56,724 nt of DNA from Oscillospiraceae bacterium (GTDB lineage Bacteria; Bacillota; Clostridia; Oscillospirales; Ruminococcaceae), in contig JAKSPK010000012.1 of the NCBI GenBank assembly GCA_024404875.1, positions 1-56,724 on the forward strand. Direction: 5' to 3'. The notes under the pieces were generated by a model, which saw only the letters and a list, made by a program, of their open reading frames with translations, was not told where the DNA came from and did no database searches. Position numbers and translations under genes: made by a program. The stretch's first letter is position 1; the number at the start of each line of letters is the position of its first letter. This document shows positions 16,170 through 52,295 of the stretch, piece after piece.

Positions 16170-16235
16170 GTTCACATGAAGTTCATATTGCATTCATATA
16201 ATGTTCATATTGTTGGTGCGGAAATATAGTATAAT
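16170..16235 (+). promoter_or_regulatory. Four 11-bp-phased activator boxes and -10 of the response-regulator operon
   Basis: GTTCACA, GTTCATA, ATTCATA and GTTCATA begin at 16170, 16181, 16192 and 16203, each exactly 11 bases apart. A perfect TATAAT lies at 16230-16235, 27 bases after the last box start. The -35 position (16207-16212, ATATTG) does not match consensus, so the promoter should need an activator. Tandem 11-bp repeats are the usual sites of PhoB/OmpR-type regulators, and the regulator itself is encoded just downstream, suggesting autoregulation. Confidence 0.75.
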
Positions 16236-16283: not shown

Positions 16284-16991
16284 ATGGCTATGGAAAAAAT
16301 ACTCGTTGTGGACGATGAACCTAATATTTGCGAGGTGCTGCGCACCATTCTTGTCAAGGAGGGCTATACCGCGATTGTCGCGAATGACGGCGAGGAAGCG
16401 CTCACAAAATTCAACGCGATGCATCCCGATCTTGTGCTGCTCGATGTGATGATGCCGGGCATGAACGGCTATACCGTCATGCGTGAGATCCAGAAGAAAT
16501 CGAATGTGCCGGTCATTCTCGTGACCGCGAAATCCGAGCCGAACGATGAGGCGCTCGGCCTCGATCTCGGCGCGGAGGACTATATCACCAAGCCGATCGA
16601 CAAGATCAAGCTGCTTGCCCGCATTCGCGCCAGAATGCGCAAGAACGGTCAGCCGGTGCAGGAGCAAAGTCCGCACCGCGGCAGAGTCGATTACGACAAG
16701 CTGACAATCGACATGGACGGCTACGTGCTGCGTGTCAACGGCAAGGTCATTGATACACCGCCGAAGGAGCTGGAGCTGCTTTACTGCCTCGCCTCCAATC
16801 CGAATCATGTCTATACCCGTGACCAGCTGCTTGATGAGGTATGGGGCTTTGAGTATTATGGCGATTCACGCACGATCGACGTGCATATCAAGCGCCTGCG
16901 CGAGAAGCTCGAAAAGGTCTCCGACAAATGGGAGCTGCGAACCGTCTGGGGTGTGGGCTATAAATTCGCAGTGCCGGACGAAACGGAATAA
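16284..16991 (+). CDS. OmpR/PhoB-family response regulator
   Basis: The 235-residue protein has a receiver domain (about 5-118) with acidic pocket D10/D11, phospho-acceptor D54 in LVLLDVMMPGMNG, and K103 in DYITKPID. A winged-helix DNA-binding domain follows (about 135-232), with PPKELELLYCLA, YTRDQLLDEVWG and VDVHIKRLR-type recognition helix residues. AGGAGG lies seven bases before the ATG. It is followed after three bases by its kinase and then an HtrA protease. That grouping recalls the CssRS/HtrA secretion-stress system of Bacillus, but a PhoPR or ResDE role cannot be excluded from sequence alone. Confidence 0.95.
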   Translation: MAMEKILVVDDEPNICEVLRTILVKEGYTAIVANDGEEALTKFNAMHPDLVLLDVMMPGMNGYTVMREIQKKSNVPVILVTAKSEPNDEALGLDLGAEDYITKPIDKIKLLARIRARMRKNGQPVQEQSPHRGRVDYDKLTIDMDGYVLRVNGKVIDTPPKELELLYCLASNPNHVYTRDQLLDEVWGFEYYGDSRTIDVHIKRLREKLEKVSDKWELRTVWGVGYKFAVPDETE

Positions 16992-16994
16992 ACA

Positions 16995-18416
16995 ATGCTG
17001 AACAGTGTTTACAGCCGAATTTTCTATCTCTGTACGATCATTCTGATGTTTGCCTGTGCGCTCACCGGTGTTATCGTCGTGCTGTATGCGAACCATATGC
17101 ACGAACAGGAAGCCTATGAACATTTCAACAGCACAGCGCGCATTTTGCTGACACGGATCCGCGATCTCTACACAGAGGAGCATCTGAATACCGACCTGCT
17201 TCAAACGGAGCTGGAGACCTACACGCTTAATGAGAATGTGGACTGCTACGTGTTCAATGATGACAGAGCGTGCATTGTCCGCTCTGATTACAACGGCAGT
17301 GAGATCGTATTAAGCGCGGCACTCCAGTCGGAAGCGCGGGAAAAGCCGTACTGTCAGATGGGCGGCGCCAGCGGCAATTTTTCTGAATCGACAGCGATCT
17401 ATCTTGAACGCTTTGAGCTGAATGAGAATAACGGCTATTATCTCATGCTGATCTTTCCGGCGGGATATATCAGTGAATATTCCGCAAAGCTGCTGATCAT
17501 GCTGATTATCACGGTGCTGCTCTGCGGTATCGTCGGCGCAGCGGTATTCTATCTCAATACCAAGCAGGCGCTTAATCCGGTTTTGCAGATCACAAGACAG
17601 GCGGAGAATTATGCCAAGGGCGATTTTTCTGCGCGTCTGGAAGCGACCGGCGATCCGGAGATGGACAGACTGATTCTGACCATGAACAAAATGGCGGATT
17701 TTATCGACCGGAACGAGCGCAGCCGCAGACGCTTTGTGTCCGATGTGTCGCATGAGCTGAAAACGCCGATGACGACGATCGGCGGCTTCGTGGACGGCAT
17801 CCTAGACGGCACGATCCCGAAGACAGAGGAAAAGCGCTATCTGCGGACGGTGTCCTCGGAGGTGCAGCGGCTTTCCAGACTGGTGCATTCTATGCTGAGT
17901 ATCTCACGCTTTGAGGAGGGCACACTTACGCCGGAATTTGAACGGCTCGATATCACGCATCTGCTGATTATGACGCTGCTGCTCTTTGAGCAGAAGATCG
18001 AGGACAAAGGACTTTCTGTTGAAGGATTGGATGTCTGCCCGAAGACAATGGCTGTCGTGGACCGCGATCTGATGCAGCAGGTATTCTACAATCTCACAGA
18101 GAATGCGATCAAGTTCGTCAACAAGGGCGGAACACTGTTTCTTGCTGTCGAATCCGACGAGCTGAAAGCGGATGTCCATATCCGCAACAGCGGCGAGGGG
18201 CTGACAGAGGAGGAGATCTCCCACGTGTTCGAGCGCTTCTATAAGACGGACGAATCCCGCGGCAAGGACAGAACCGGTGTCGGGCTGGGGCTTTCGATCG
18301 TCAGCCGCATCATGACGCTGCATGACGGCGCGGTGACGGTCAAGAGCGTCAAGGGCGAGTATACGGAATTCATCGTCAGTATGCCGCTGATGCAGAAGGA
18401 CTATTACAAAGATTAA
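16995..18416 (+). CDS. Membrane sensor histidine kinase
   Basis: The 473-residue kinase has a transmembrane helix at about 10-32, an extracytoplasmic sensor of about 130 residues and a second helix at about 165-188. A HAMP domain follows, then a HisKA domain with H253 in FVSDVSHELKTPMTT, and an ATPase domain with N370 in LTENAIKF, a degenerate G1 box (NSGEG) and G2 (TGVGLGLSI). The sensor region has no recognisable PAS fold. It starts three bases after the response regulator stop and should be its partner. An in-operon HtrA protease suggests that the signal is envelope or secretion stress. Confidence 0.95.
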   Translation: MLNSVYSRIFYLCTIILMFACALTGVIVVLYANHMHEQEAYEHFNSTARILLTRIRDLYTEEHLNTDLLQTELETYTLNENVDCYVFNDDRACIVRSDYNGSEIVLSAALQSEAREKPYCQMGGASGNFSESTAIYLERFELNENNGYYLMLIFPAGYISEYSAKLLIMLIITVLLCGIVGAAVFYLNTKQALNPVLQITRQAENYAKGDFSARLEATGDPEMDRLILTMNKMADFIDRNERSRRRFVSDVSHELKTPMTTIGGFVDGILDGTIPKTEEKRYLRTVSSEVQRLSRLVHSMLSISRFEEGTLTPEFERLDITHLLIMTLLLFEQKIEDKGLSVEGLDVCPKTMAVVDRDLMQQVFYNLTENAIKFVNKGGTLFLAVESDELKADVHIRNSGEGLTEEEISHVFERFYKTDESRGKDRTGVGLGLSIVSRIMTLHDGAVTVKSVKGEYTEFIVSMPLMQKDYYKD

Positions 18417-18430
18417 GCAAGGAGGCAGAC

Positions 18431-19855
18431 ATGACTGAGGAAGAACTGAAAGCGCTGCTGGACAATGCTGCACTGTCAGAGGAACCGCATCCGGAGCAGA
18501 GCGCGGAATCTGATGCGCTGATTGAGGATATCAAGGGCTTTTTTGACGGGCCGCGTGTGCTGCCGCAGCAGCCGGTACCGGAGGAGCAGCCTGCAGGCGA
18601 ACCATCCTTTATCCCCGATCCGGAGAATCCGCTGCCGGCAAGAGAGCAGACAGAGCCGATGCCCTTTGCAGGCTATCCGGAGGAAAAGCCGCAGAAGCAT
18701 GGATGGATCGCGGCGGTTTTTGCTGTGACTGTTCTGCTCCTGATCGGCTTTGCGGTGTTTTGCATCGTCATGGATCTGCGCAGCGGTACAACAGTTGGCG
18801 GATACCGTGCAGGCGATGTTATCGAGGTGAAGCTCGAACAGCATGATAAGCCGGCGTCCGCGAAAACGGATGTAGCAGAGCATTCTGCAGCAGGCGTGGC
18901 AAAAAAGGTCATGCCGAGCATTGTGCAGATCTATACCTATTCAAACGGTGCCGTGAACGGAACCGGCTCCGGTATCATTCTGACAGAGGACGGCTATATT
19001 GCCACGAATGCCCATGTTGTTAAAGACGCGGAGGGCTATACCGTGAAGCTGTTCGATGAGGGTCAGAGCGACAAAACCTATGATGCGGTGCTGATCGGAC
19101 ATGACAGCAAGACTGACCTGGCGGTTCTGAAGATCTCGCTCAGCGGTCTGCATCCGGCGGAGCTTGGCAATTCCGATCAGGTGCAGCTTGGCGAGACTGT
19201 CTGTGCGCTCGGCAATCCGGCCGGTCTCAGCGGCTCGATCACGGTTGGCATCATCTCCGGCATGAATCGCAAGGTGCGTGCAAATGCGAAGGAATTTGAA
19301 ATGGATTGCTTTCAGACCGATGCGGCGATCAGCCCCGGCAATTCCGGCGGTGCGCTCGTCAATCTCAGTGGCCAGGTCATCGGCATAACATCCTCGAAAT
19401 ACGGCCGTTCCATTCTGACTGGCGCGGGCTATGAGGGTCTTGGCTTTGCGATCATGATAAATGAAGCCATGCCGATCATCAAAGAATTGATGGAGCAGGG
19501 CTATGTCAGCGGAAGAGTTCGCATCGGTATTGAATTCTATGAGAATGCGATAGCACATCAGAAAGCCGCGGCGGAGGAGGTAACGCTGCCGCCGCAGCTT
19601 GACGGAACCGGCATCCAGATCGGCGGTATTGCCGAGGACACGGATCTTGCCAATACGGTTTTAAAGCCCGGCGAGTGGATTCTTGCGATGAACGGCAAGG
19701 AGGTCAGCGATTATGATTCGGTCAACAAGGCAATCGAAGGACTGAGCGCCGGCGATACTGTTCATTGCCGCTGTGCGCGAATCAAGGATGACGGGCGGCT
19801 GGAGACCTTTGAGATTGACTTCAAACTCATGGAGGATCAGTCCGGTGAATTCTGA
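18431..19855 (+). CDS. Membrane-anchored HtrA/DegP-like serine protease
   Basis: The 474-residue protein has an acidic Pro/Glu-rich cytoplasmic N-terminus of about 90 residues and one transmembrane helix (about 91-115). The extracytoplasmic trypsin-like domain carries the full triad: H195 in TNAHVV, D229 in SKTDLAVLKI and S305 in SPGNSGGALV. A PDZ domain (about 380-465) follows. HtrA proteases degrade misfolded exported proteins. AAGGAGG precedes the ATG. It is the third gene of the two-component operon, so its expression should follow the phased boxes at 16170. Confidence 0.95.
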   Translation: MTEEELKALLDNAALSEEPHPEQSAESDALIEDIKGFFDGPRVLPQQPVPEEQPAGEPSFIPDPENPLPAREQTEPMPFAGYPEEKPQKHGWIAAVFAVTVLLLIGFAVFCIVMDLRSGTTVGGYRAGDVIEVKLEQHDKPASAKTDVAEHSAAGVAKKVMPSIVQIYTYSNGAVNGTGSGIILTEDGYIATNAHVVKDAEGYTVKLFDEGQSDKTYDAVLIGHDSKTDLAVLKISLSGLHPAELGNSDQVQLGETVCALGNPAGLSGSITVGIISGMNRKVRANAKEFEMDCFQTDAAISPGNSGGALVNLSGQVIGITSSKYGRSILTGAGYEGLGFAIMINEAMPIIKELMEQGYVSGRVRIGIEFYENAIAHQKAAAEEVTLPPQLDGTGIQIGGIAEDTDLANTVLKPGEWILAMNGKEVSDYDSVNKAIEGLSAGDTVHCRCARIKDDGRLETFEIDFKLMEDQSGEF

Positions 19856-32672: not shown

Positions 32673-32924
32673 ATGACCAACAAGGGACTCAATTTACAGG
32701 ATGTCTTTCTCAACCAGGCACGCAAGGAACGCCTTCCGCTGACGATTTTTCTGACGAACGGCTATCAGTTCAAGGGCATTATCCGCGGCTTCGATTCGTT
32801 CATCGTGATCCTCGAAACAGACGGCAGACAGCAGCTTGTCTATAAGCACGCGATCTCCACGATTGTTCCGGCAAGACCGATTTCCATTCTCGACGCGATG
32901 GAACAGCGGGAGGATGCAGAGTAA
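32673..32924 (+). CDS. hfq: RNA chaperone Hfq
   Basis: The 83-residue protein has the Sm1 motif [21 protein letters not shown] and the Sm2 YKHAIST, with [10 protein letters not shown] before them. Hfq forms a hexameric ring that binds small RNAs and mRNA tails. ATG 32673 is chosen because the residues before it are not conserved. It lies after miaA, four bases before an HlyD-like gene. A candidate small RNA with C-rich seeds is encoded at 48987-49089 in the same window. Confidence 0.96.
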
Positions 32925-35568: not shown

Positions 35569-36207
35569 ATGATCACGGCAAAAGATGTTCAGAAGAAAAA
35601 GTTTGAGAAGGTAAAGTTCGGTTACAGCCCCGAAGAGGTCGATGCGTTTCTTTCTCAGATCGAGAATGACCTTCGCCTTATGCAGCAGGATATGGATGAC
35701 TCGAATGAGAAGATCCAGCTCCTCGCCGACAAAGTTCGTGAGTACAAGGACACCGAAGAAGATCTGAAGAATGCACTTTTGCTGGCACAGCGTCAGGCGC
35801 GTCAGGTCATCGCTGAGGCACAGGAAAAGGCGGACTCAATCGAAGCGGAGGCGCGTGCTTCCGTTGAAAACGCAAAGTCGCAGGCACTCGCGGATTCCGA
35901 GGAATCGCTTCGTCAGGTCAATGAGGAACTTGAAAAGAGCAAGGCCGCTCTGGATCGTACAAAGAAGCAGGTCTCAGATTTCAAGCAGACATTGTTCGGC
36001 CTCTATAAGCAGCATCTGGAGATGATCTCCAGACTGCCCGCTTCTCTTGATGAGGAAGAGGAATACGAGGAGGTTGAAGTGATCGAAGAGGTCGAGGTCA
36101 TCGAGGAAGCCGCTGACGGGGCAGCAGAGACTGCTGCTGACAGCTTTGACAGCGTTGCGCAGTCCACATTCGGCAGCCGCCGCGATGATTTCAAACCGAA
36201 TTTCTGA
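35569..36207 (+). CDS. divIVA: DivIVA-family septum/pole protein
   Basis: The 212-residue protein starts with the DivIVA signature (MITAKDVQKKKF and GYSPEEVDAFLSQIENDL) and continues as a coiled coil to about 150, then an acidic tail rich in Glu and Val. It senses membrane curvature at the division site. AAGGAGAAG lies before the ATG and is complementary to the CUUCUCCUU stretch of the candidate RNA at 48987-49089. Confidence 0.95.
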   Translation: MITAKDVQKKKFEKVKFGYSPEEVDAFLSQIENDLRLMQQDMDDSNEKIQLLADKVREYKDTEEDLKNALLLAQRQARQVIAEAQEKADSIEAEARASVENAKSQALADSEESLRQVNEELEKSKAALDRTKKQVSDFKQTLFGLYKQHLEMISRLPASLDEEEEYEEVEVIEEVEVIEEAADGAAETAADSFDSVAQSTFGSRRDDFKPNF

Positions 36208-48918: not shown

Positions 48919-48986
48919 ATGATCGGTATACAGCAAAAACAATTCCCTTTTGCGACATAGTCATATTATATAACAATCATATGATA

Positions 48987-49089
48987 AAGAAAAACTATGT
49001 GACGAATGCCACATAGCTGCAAGGAGAAGTAAAATCAACAAAACATAGGGGGATTGGGGATTTGAAACAAGGTTTCCGTGAAACCTTGT
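48987..49089 (-). ncRNA. Candidate regulatory small RNA, about 100 nt
   Basis: On the minus strand a -10 box (49094-49099) is followed by a perfect 10-bp hairpin at the expected 5' end (ACAAGGTTTC/GAAACCTTGT, 49067-49089). An unstructured stretch then carries UCCCC twice (AUCCCCAAUCCCCC) and CUUCUCCUUG, which is complementary to Shine-Dalgarno sites. An intrinsic terminator ends it (CTATGTG/CACATAG, 48995-49016, then TTTTTCTTT). There is no credible open frame. The design, with a 5' hairpin, UCCCC seed and terminator, resembles RoxS/RsaE of Bacillus and Staphylococcus. Sequence homology is not shown. Confidence 0.7.
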
Positions 49090-49093
49090 GCTT

Positions 49094-49170
49094 ATTATAC
49101 CGGATAAACATAGAATAAACCTGAATAGACTGTGAACAGTTTGTGAACGCTTCGCAAGTTTTTTGTGAAC
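49094..49170 (-). promoter_or_regulatory. Phased GTTCACA boxes and -10 driving the small RNA
   Basis: Reading the minus strand, GTTCACA occurs at 49170, 49148 and 49137, a degenerate ACTTGCG at 49159 and ATTCAGG at 49126, all at 11-base phase. TATAAT (49099-49094) starts 27 bases after the last box, the same distance as in the 16170-16235 promoter. The -35 position (AGGTTT) does not match consensus. This fits an activator-dependent promoter for the same response regulator. Confidence 0.65.
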
Positions 49171-49282: not shown

Positions 49283-49349
49283 GAAAATAGTCCGAACAAG
49301 ACTCAAAAACATAAAACAGCAATGCTGAAAATGATCGGGGGAATCATGC

Positions 49350-52295
49350 ATGAGACAAATCCTGCACAAGCTGACAGCGGCCGTTACATCACTGGCTGCG
49401 GCAGCTTCACTCGCGGCTGCTCTGCCCGCCGCAACCGCTTCGGCGGCCAATACTTATTGGAAATTTGACTTCGGCGGAAATGGCGTCGCTTCCGGCTATA
49501 CGGGCGTCAGCGCCGCGGACGGCTATAACGCCTCCCGCGGATACGGCTTTTCCACCGGAACCGATGTCGCAAATGTCGCTGCATCCGGCTCCGGTGCGCT
49601 GAGTGATGCCGTACAGTTCAAGAATGCGTCCGCGACCGGCAATTACACTTTCTGCGCCGATGTGCCGAACGGTCTCTATCAGGTCTCGGTATGGCTCGGC
49701 AATACGAACCGCACCAGCGTTGGCATTGAGCGTATGCTCCAGATCGTGAACATGACCGGAAACAACGCCTACCACACGCTTCAGGTTCCGGTCACGGACG
49801 GACAGCTCAATATCTGTGCCTGCGCCGGAAAAGACGGTTATCCTTTTTCGATCTCTGCTTTGGAGATCAAGCAGATCTCAACGCAGACGCATACCAATCC
49901 GACAATCTGGGTATGCGGCGACTCGACCGTCTGCAACTACTATCCGCTCGAAACCTCCGCGCAGGCGGGCTGGGCACAGATGCTCCCGAAGTTTATTGAT
50001 TCTGCAAAGTGGCAGGTCATGGATATGGCTGCATCCGGCCAGTATGCACGCGGCTTTATGCAGGGCGGTCAGTTCGATGTTATCGAAAAGAACGGTCAGC
50101 CCGGTGATATTTATGTGATCTCGATCGGCATCAACGATACCAATTCAAAGAATGACACCACCGAGGCACAGTATGAGGAGATTATCACCGATATGGCACA
50201 GCGCGCCATGAAGAAGGGCATGCGTGTGATTCTCGTTAAGCAGCAGGGCAGAAACGGCGACTGCCAGCGCAATCCGCTTCTGAAGTCAAGATGGTACGCC
50301 GGTGCGCTCGACCGCGTCGGTCAGGCGCTTAATATCGAAGTTGTCGATTTGTTCAATCTCTGGCAGGATTACTGTCTGACCAAAACGGCTGACGAGGTCT
50401 CTGCAATGTATCTTGAGGACGGTCTGCATCCGAACCGTGCGGGCGCGACTGTGCTGGCACAGTTTATGGCAGATGCAATCAACAACGGCGGCATTGCCGC
50501 TGAGCCGGTCAGCTTTGAGGATGGCAGCGAGTTCCTGTTCCGCAATGTGGAGTCCGGGATGTATCTGACCGTTGAAGGCGGTACGGCCGCAGCGGGTACA
50601 AATGTCTCGCAGTCGGCGGATGCTGTCCCTGCAGAGAAAAATACATGGAAGCTCCGGACAGGCGCAAACGGAGACTATTATATCTATTCGATGCTTGACG
50701 GCGGCAGCACCTACCTGCTCGATGTCGCGGACGGCAAGACCGCTAACGGCACAAATATCGGCATCTGGACGGATACCAAATCCAGTGCACAGCTTTTCCG
50801 ATTCTATCAGAACGGCGACCACTATCATATCGCAACGGCTGTCACCGACGGAAAGAGCTATGTCGGCATCACAGGCGGTTCCCATGAGGAGGCCGCAAAC
50901 GCAATCGAATGGAGCAATGACGGCTCGCTGAATCAGCTCTGGGAATTCATTCCGGCTGCTGAAGCAGCGGCGGCAATCCCGCTCGCGCAGGCCGATCTTG
51001 ACGGCGATGGTGTTGTCACCGCAAAGGATCTTTCGCTCGCAAAGCGCGTCATCAGTGCGGCGGAAAAACCGTATACCAGAATGCAGGCATCTGATGTTAC
51101 CGGTGATCTCAAGGCGGAATCCGATGACGCTGTGCTGCTTTGCGGCTATCTGCTGACGAAAGAAGAAGCATTTGCGGATCCGAAGATCGCAGCGACCGAG
51201 CAGACGATCACGCAGGGATTCTCCGAAACAACCAATGCAGGCTTCCTCTATAAAGATTATCTCAATCTCGAAAACAATACAGCCTCTGCTGTGACCTTTA
51301 TGGTAAATGTTGTGAAGAAGGGCAACTATCTCTGCACATTCAACATCGCGAACGGTACTGACAAAGACCGTGAAATGGATATTACGGTCAGCGGCTCGAA
51401 GGAAACATGGAAGCAGAGCTTCCTGGGCACCGGTGCATGGACAACGTGGCAGGAGCGCGGCATCGTTCTTCCGCTGAATGCAGGCATCAATACGATCACG
51501 CTGAAATCGAATACCGCGGACGGCGGCCCGAATTTTGATTATCTGATGCTGACGCTGACCGATGAGCCTGTTGCGGAATCTTACGATCCGAATGCGCAGG
51601 GGCCGCAGCAGCCGACCAGCGATAATCCTGTTATCTATATCGCGGCAGATTCGACAGCGCAGACCTACCGTGCGGACAAGGCGCCGCAGCAGGGCTGGGG
51701 CTACTATCTCCAGAATTATTTCAATTCCAATGTCACCGTTGCAAACCATGCGATCGCAGGCCGCAGCTCCAAGAGCTTCTATGACAACGGCAGACTGACG
51801 ACGATCCTCGATCAGATCAAGCCCGGCGATTATCTGCTGGTCGACTTCGGAATCAATGACGGCGATTATACGAAGGCGGAGCGCTATGCACCAACCAAGG
51901 GCAATGTCGATAATCCGGAGGTCGGCTCCTTTGAGTATTACATGACCTTCTATATCAAGGGTGCACTTGACAAGGGCGCGACACCGATTCTCATGAGCCC
52001 GACGCTCTCGATCCGCAATCAGACGCAGCCTTTTTCAGCCGGCTACCGTAATGTGGATTCCTCTTGTCAGGCGCTCGCAAAGAAGTACAATATCCCGTAT
52101 TTTGATCTCAGCGCAGCGATGGCCAATGATTTCAACAAGCGCGACTATAACACCGTCAAGAACTACTATCTGGGCGGCGCGACCGGCGGTACCGATTTCA
52201 CGCATTTCACCGAGACCGGCGCGAATGTTGTTGCACAGATCATTGCAAACGGAATCAAGGGAATGAAAATCGACCTTTCCTCAAATGTGAAGTGA
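49350..52295 (+). CDS. Secreted cellulosomal double CE12-type esterase with internal dockerin
   Basis: The 981-residue protein has a signal peptide (about 1-33), a beta-rich module (34-175) and a first SGNH/CE12 esterase (about 185-385: GDS 190-192, GIND 260-263, D357/H360). A ricin-type lectin module (395-540) and a type I dockerin (about 547-602) follow, the first repeat being canonical (DLDGDGVVTAKDLSLAKRV) and the second degenerate (DVTGDLKAESDD). A CBM35-like module (about 630-740) and a second CE12 esterase (760-975: S768, GIND 834-837, D949/H952) complete it. CE12 enzymes remove acetyl groups from rhamnogalacturonan or xylan. The dockerin would attach it to a cellulosome scaffold. Confidence 0.93.
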   Translation: MRQILHKLTAAVTSLAAAASLAAALPAATASAANTYWKFDFGGNGVASGYTGVSAADGYNASRGYGFSTGTDVANVAASGSGALSDAVQFKNASATGNYTFCADVPNGLYQVSVWLGNTNRTSVGIERMLQIVNMTGNNAYHTLQVPVTDGQLNICACAGKDGYPFSISALEIKQISTQTHTNPTIWVCGDSTVCNYYPLETSAQAGWAQMLPKFIDSAKWQVMDMAASGQYARGFMQGGQFDVIEKNGQPGDIYVISIGINDTNSKNDTTEAQYEEIITDMAQRAMKKGMRVILVKQQGRNGDCQRNPLLKSRWYAGALDRVGQALNIEVVDLFNLWQDYCLTKTADEVSAMYLEDGLHPNRAGATVLAQFMADAINNGGIAAEPVSFEDGSEFLFRNVESGMYLTVEGGTAAAGTNVSQSADAVPAEKNTWKLRTGANGDYYIYSMLDGGSTYLLDVADGKTANGTNIGIWTDTKSSAQLFRFYQNGDHYHIATAVTDGKSYVGITGGSHEEAANAIEWSNDGSLNQLWEFIPAAEAAAAIPLAQADLDGDGVVTAKDLSLAKRVISAAEKPYTRMQASDVTGDLKAESDDAVLLCGYLLTKEEAFADPKIAATEQTITQGFSETTNAGFLYKDYLNLENNTASAVTFMVNVVKKGNYLCTFNIANGTDKDREMDITVSGSKETWKQSFLGTGAWTTWQERGIVLPLNAGINTITLKSNTADGGPNFDYLMLTLTDEPVAESYDPNAQGPQQPTSDNPVIYIAADSTAQTYRADKAPQQGWGYYLQNYFNSNVTVANHAIAGRSSKSFYDNGRLTTILDQIKPGDYLLVDFGINDGDYTKAERYAPTKGNVDNPEVGSFEYYMTFYIKGALDKGATPILMSPTLSIRNQTQPFSAGYRNVDSSCQALAKKYNIPYFDLSAAMANDFNKRDYNTVKNYYLGGATGGTDFTHFTETGANVVAQIIANGIKGMKIDLSSNVK

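Follow-up and report, generated by a model that had tools for sequence, protein, structure and literature searches.

The minus strand between positions 48987 and 49170 of the DNA analysed here (the window, a stretch of 56,724 nt) raises the question of whether it encodes a small RNA (sRNA) under two-component control and, if so, which regulator might drive it and which mRNAs it might act upon. The candidate sRNA is approximately 104 nt long (48986-49089, minus strand, with putative ends) and is matched by our covariance model with E 2.7e-19. The elements named in the original prediction, namely a hairpin, C-rich seeds left unpaired and a terminator, are all present on this strand. The 5' hairpin (49067-49089), described there as a perfect 10 bp stem, is counted here as 9-10 bp. 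It is followed by the seeds UCCCC AA UCCCCC (49048-49060), of which UCCCC occupies 49060-49056 and UCCCCC 49053-49048; both are mostly unpaired in the predicted fold, with weak internal pairing of AAAUC. Further downstream lie a CUUCUCCUU stretch complementary to AAGGAG (49021-49029) and an intrinsic terminator (48985-49018), whose stem (49018-48993) has the expected seven strict pairs, or 11 with G-U and inner pairs included, and a T tract behind it. The predicted folding energy of the 104 nt RNA was -25.3 kcal/mol, compared with a mean of -12.8 (sd 2.6) in 200 dinucleotide shuffles (z -4.84), none of which reached the energy of the native sequence.

When the locus DNA was searched against 60 relatives, 28 of the 29 same-genus genomes matched at E <= 1.3e-4, and the best match among the 31 relatives outside the genus had E 0.023. 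We built the covariance model from 19 of the 29 homologues, using a hand-drawn structure. It found a single copy in each of 29 genus genomes out of 30, with E between 1.7e-12 and 1.5e-23, the 19 building sequences matching by construction; the sole miss was genome G018, which is 77% complete. When the model was run on 295 genomes of the order under stricter filters, four genomes besides the window's own matched at E <= 0.01. One of these, G237, belongs to the same family but lies outside the genus and contains a further credible homologue (E 1.5e-7); the other three matches (E 0.003-0.01) were unconvincing by eye and were rejected. A scan of named genomes with the seed pattern recovered 26 stretches, 22 of them in metagenome-assembled genomes that carry the label Ruminococcus, Oscillospiraceae, Clostridiales or Clostridia, often with sample names that refer to rumen or gut. 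The remaining four, from unrelated phyla, were taken as chance matches; two of them received 20-23 bits from the model (E 0.004-0.015) and two no score at all. Rfam, which holds an RsaE model, contained no gathering-level match at the locus, the best loose matches being to unrelated families (E 2.4-7.7).

Substitution patterns agreed with the predicted structure. In the alignment of 30 sequences fitted to the model, 10 of 18 base pairs showed changes on both sides, including four of the seven modelled pairs of the 5' hairpin (99.5% of cells paired) and six of the 11 pairs of the terminator. Across the structure, 96.8% of 534 cells were paired and none of 500 shuffles was as good; a model-fitted alignment leans towards the structure by construction, but slid controls nonetheless dropped to 27-47% paired. 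The best-kept part of the RNA is the C-rich seed, with AAUCCCCC in all 30 rows. The original prediction required hairpin, seeds and terminator to be conserved in relatives, and all three have been kept. On this comparative evidence, the locus is a minus-strand small RNA.

The promoter region contains a second conserved pattern. With the -10 element TATAAT (49094-49099, minus strand) as the anchor for comparison, four boxes lie upstream on the same strand: TTCAGG (49120-49125), which ends 20 nt before the -10 element and where TTCA is found in 25 of 29 sRNA promoters, TTCACA at 49131-49136 (24/29), TTCACA at 49142-49147 (27/29), and a distal TTCACA at 49164-49169 (24/29). A common 11 bp register accounts for 105 of the 112 TTCA occurrences across the 29 promoters, and the best register per promoter held a mean of 3.6 TTCAs vs 0.41 in shuffles. 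The 11 bp phase of the minus-strand boxes had been correctly foreseen, and they form direct repeats of the OmpR-family type in one register, but the distance to TATAAT, given as 27 bases, is in fact 20 nt when measured from TTCAGG, or 31 nt if TTCACA boxes alone are considered. The arrangement is commoner than its controls: TTCAYA-N5-TTCAYA occurs at 12 sites in the window's genome compared with one for a reversed control, and the box-to-TATAMT pattern at 37 sites in 30 genomes compared with one control site. In the G237 homologue, TTTAAG boxes take the place of TTCA, in the form TTTAAG-N5-TTTAAG-N10-TATAAT.

Two further observations concern these boxes. In eight genomes, the gene for ribosomal protein S15 (rpsO, identified by eye) is preceded by TTCAYA-N5-TTCAYA at a similar distance from TATAAT (loci L063, L073, L075, L080, L081, L084, L086 and L097). 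TTCACA-N5 repeats also resemble PhoP/PhoB boxes; phosphate (Pho) control was set aside and a pst link is unlikely, because PstB exceeded its curated cut-off in only two of the 30 genomes (G006 and G015).

The same geometry is found within the window before an operon on the plus strand. Four tandem TTCAYA boxes (16171-16209), kept in orthologues, precede RR1, an OmpR-family response regulator (16284-16991; Pfam Response_reg and Trans_reg_C), which is followed by a sensor histidine kinase (16995-18416; Pfam HAMP, HisKA and HATPase_c) and an HtrA/DegP-type serine protease (18431-19855; Pfam Trypsin_2, with best NCBIfam matches to the Do family/HtrA that fall below their cut-offs). The kinase follows RR1 in all 20 relatives examined and HtrA lies downstream in 17 of them. 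RR1 orthologues were detected in 29 of 30 genus genomes, including G018, where no sRNA was matched. After exclusion of G002, in which the promoter meets a contig end, 28 RR1 promoters were readable, and 26 of these have a box 20 nt before TATAMT together with further upstream boxes in register; in G009 the boxes stand 10 nt further from the -10 element, and G008 had no boxes in the upstream stretch read. TTCA occurs at 31 and at 42 nt before the -10 element in 24 of the 26 promoters each; these 26 were selected by their 20 nt box, so only the other positions constitute independent evidence. Boxes at 20, 31 and 42 nt are thus common to the RR1 and sRNA promoters. Based on this shared geometry, we propose RR1 as the most likely activator of the sRNA.

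The candidate target lies immediately beside the sRNA. Divergent from it on the plus strand is a gene for a secreted GDSL-type esterase (49350-52295), and the window's protein contains the Pfam domains AGA-YXIM_GBD, Lipase_GDSL_2, Lipase_GDSL, RicinB_lectin_2 and Dockerin_1. The nearest divergent upstream gene clusters with the window's esterase by BLAST in 22 of 29 loci, and a search of the flanks for the string YWKFDF or EWKFDF located such a gene, in this orientation, at 24 of the 29. All 24 of these genes have GGGGG 6-17 nt before the ATG (49337-49341 in the window), their start codons having been chosen by a rule that scores GGGGG, AGGAG and GGAGG alike; we propose this Shine-Dalgarno sequence as the pairing site of the seed. 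Elsewhere, GGGGG precedes 15 of 393 sampled genes of the window's own genome, six of 52 predicted secreted genes and one of 29 RR1 starts. The 24 esterases share ancestry, and a binomial p value that ignores this kinship was set aside. Predicted pairing energies for the 24 sRNA-esterase pairs ranged from -12.3 to -23.5 kcal/mol, with z from 0.1 to -3.9 (30 shuffles) and above -0.5 in three pairs. The window's own pair was unremarkable (z -0.2 with 30 shuffles; rank 19 of 393 genes). Taken together, the divergent esterase gene is the best-supported candidate target of the AAUCCCCC seed.

A wider class of secreted targets is suggested by the same own-genome sample. Six of the 15 genes with GGGGG before the start were predicted to be secreted vs 46 of the 378 without (p 0.008), and GGAGG before the start showed no link to predicted secretion (odds 0.93). 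Secreted genes overall did not pair significantly better with the seed in this sample (p 0.10). Across the genus, among the matches listed, 27 of 56 GGGGGATTT starts and 18 of 47 GGAGGATTT control starts preceded predicted secreted genes (p 0.33); the two are not separated, so the wider class is not established. These rows were drawn from 130 and 70 loci, respectively, among the matches listed, keeping frames of at least 100 aa that were distinct in their first 60 residues, with signal peptides called by a home-made rule and four terminator-like rows dropped from the GGGGG side (60 to 56). A conserved terminator-like stem ending in GGGGGATTTCTTATG mimics a start site at 12 genus loci (L235-L244, L246 and L247); by eye, this recurrent sequence belongs to a terminator stem, and at 12 of the 13 places examined no frame follows, the exception being L245.

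The original prediction had also named divIVA (35569-36204; Pfam E 6.1e-24) as a target. AAGGAGAAG does precede this gene, which ranks first of 393 sampled genes of the window's genome for pairing with the CUUCUCCUU stretch. However, CUUCUCCUU is found in only 12 of the 30 aligned homologues (CUUCCUCUU in four), so this pairing would be at best a clade-level effect and divIVA is a weak candidate. The hfq gene (32673-32921; Pfam E 1.3e-33) is present in the window as described, 16 kb from the sRNA, and our analysis found no tie between the two.

Other explanations were weighed against an independently transcribed, trans-acting RNA of about 104 nt, which we consider the probable reading as part of the best overall explanation. 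The divergent gene pair, kept in 22 of 29 loci, would also suit a cis element, that is, a divergent-promoter or leader structure instead of an independent RNA. We judge this to be highly improbable: the minus strand has its own -10 element, hairpin and terminator, with covariation, and the called downstream genes differ among genomes, the largest related group having four members, so that the sRNA is not the leader of one gene. A broader alternative is that the sRNA acts on many mRNAs as a general anti-Shine-Dalgarno RNA, in which case GGGGG before the esterases would be a habit of the lineage and the neighbour no special target. The modest rank of the window's esterase would fit such an RNA, as would the abundance of secreted genes behind both GGGGGATTT and GGAGGATTT starts and the match of CUUCUCCUU to canonical sites, for example that of divIVA. 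This reading appears rather unlikely, given that GGGGG is found in every one of the diverged esterase leaders whereas RR1 starts carry GGAGG or AGGAG in 28 of 29 cases, and that the kept seed is CCCCC and not CCUCC.

The same sRNA might instead be activated by another OmpR-family regulator, in which case its signal would not be HtrA-linked stress. One such regulator, RR2 (L057, 1501-2249, G000:C1), has TTCACA-N5-TTCACA before its own gene, so RR1 is not the sole candidate activator. In G000, G008 and G016, the genes of regulators that look alike by eye are each preceded by these box words. Genome G016 (96% complete) retains the sRNA and its boxes but has no close RR1, the best match being 42% identical, and in G237, where the sRNA homologue uses TTTAAG-N5-TTTAAG, no tandem boxes precede RR1. 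We consider activation by RR2 or a similar protein less likely. In the RR2 promoter the boxes end at 9 and 20 nt from the -10 element, in contrast to the 20, 31 and 42 nt of RR1 and the sRNA. RR1 and the sRNA are also on the same contig in the window, with approximately 32 kb between them, and lie within about 2-6 kb of each other in three genomes (G003, G004 and G015). RR1 remains our preferred candidate.

A second C-rich RNA accompanies the first in part of the genus. The covariance model gave a weak second match just downstream of the sRNA in five genomes, and a pattern search combined with reading by eye identified a second RNA with the core TTCCCTATTCC (9/9 aligned) in nine of 30 genomes. 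It stands in tandem with the first RNA in six (G006, G011, G013, G014, G015 and G027); in G009 and G010 the two are on different contigs, and in G018 it occurs without the first RNA. The count derives from 15 pattern places, of which two (L221 and L229) were discarded on visual inspection and four (L220, L232, L233 and L234) fall outside it. At the nine loci (L222-L228, L230 and L231), a UUCCCUAUUCC core is preceded by a hairpin and followed by a terminator-like stem, and eight have a TTYARR-N5-TTWAW-type element upstream. The consensus fold of the nine aligned sequences contained no pairs.

By published description, the nearest designs are those of LhrC and the csRNAs, which belong to envelope-stress systems, rather than RoxS/RsaE. 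LhrC1-5 of Listeria depend on the LisRK two-component system, are induced by cell-envelope stress and use UCCC motifs, one of them single-stranded between two stem-loops, to bind the mRNA of a cell-wall protein at a G-rich site that precedes the start codon (PMC4132741). The present RNA has UCCC motifs in a predicted unpaired stretch (AAUCCCCC in 30/30), but differs from the published account of LhrC in being present in one copy instead of five and in its regulator and target; for envelope-stress induction, the parallel here is the promoter geometry common with the RR1-kinase-HtrA operon.

The csRNAs of S. pneumoniae are described as 87-151 nt RNAs with two stem-loops and an unpaired anti-Shine-Dalgarno stretch, transcribed from promoters with 11 bp-period direct repeats before TATAAT, and their regulator CiaR also drives htrA (PMC3091779; PMC8186281). 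Two stem-loops flanking an unpaired anti-Shine-Dalgarno stretch are likewise found here. The promoter form TTTAAG-N5-TTTAAG-N10-TATAAT does not occur in the window's genome, although the G237 homologue has it; in the window the boxes read TTCAYA instead of TTTAAG, the seed is CCCCC, and the putative regulator need not be CiaR. Genome G237 has three such promoters (C12:40300, C20:41936 and C31:25550; L279, L281 and L282), which match the published CiaR box exactly, spacing included, and precede a VTC-type polyphosphate polymerase-like gene (by eye), the gene of a secreted protein that is dockerin-like, and the homologue of the sRNA.

RoxS/RsaE, to which the original prediction had compared the design, direct C-rich regions against G-rich Shine-Dalgarno sequences, are induced through a two-component system and are tied to ResDE/SrrAB and nitric oxide (PMC4409812). 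C-rich seeds and two-component-type control held up as points of likeness, and they are the only ones; as those RNAs are described, LhrC and the csRNAs are nearer, nothing at this locus points to redox, and Rfam gave no match. The comparison concerns how the sRNA may work, and not membership of any of these three groups.

We suggest that a phosphorylated OmpR-family response regulator, most likely RR1 of the operon at 16284-19855, would bind the tandem TTCA boxes and activate the sRNA, the RR1 system sensing envelope or secretion stress by analogy with the systems above. The exposed AAUCCCCC seeds would then base-pair with Shine-Dalgarno sequences of the form GGGGG and so prevent translation. 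The divergent esterase would be the first secreted enzyme affected, probably along with further secreted carbohydrate enzymes, and secretory load would drop while HtrA cleared misfolded protein. A stress-induced anti-Shine-Dalgarno sRNA that resembles LhrC and the csRNAs and acts on secreted enzymes is, on balance, the explanation we favour. More tentatively, we speculate that this is a genus-wide secretion-stress circuit of uncultured fibre-degrading gut bacteria, in which an HtrA-linked two-component system drives an anti-Shine-Dalgarno sRNA, GGGGG serves as an address tag on the mRNAs of secreted cell-wall enzymes, some of them dockerin-bearing, and one subclade has added a second C-rich RNA.

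Little seems to have been charted of regulatory RNAs in the uncultured Oscillospiraceae of rumen and gut, and among the open-licence PMC titles and abstract openings listed by our literature searches, none mentioned a small RNA of such a genus. The conserved fold, the promoter resembling that of a stress operon and the kept target site, each read from the DNA itself, provide a concrete link, open to experimental test, from envelope stress to how much plant-fibre enzyme is made. If the proposed circuit is correct, envelope stress would throttle translation of the fibre-degrading secretome in these bacteria.
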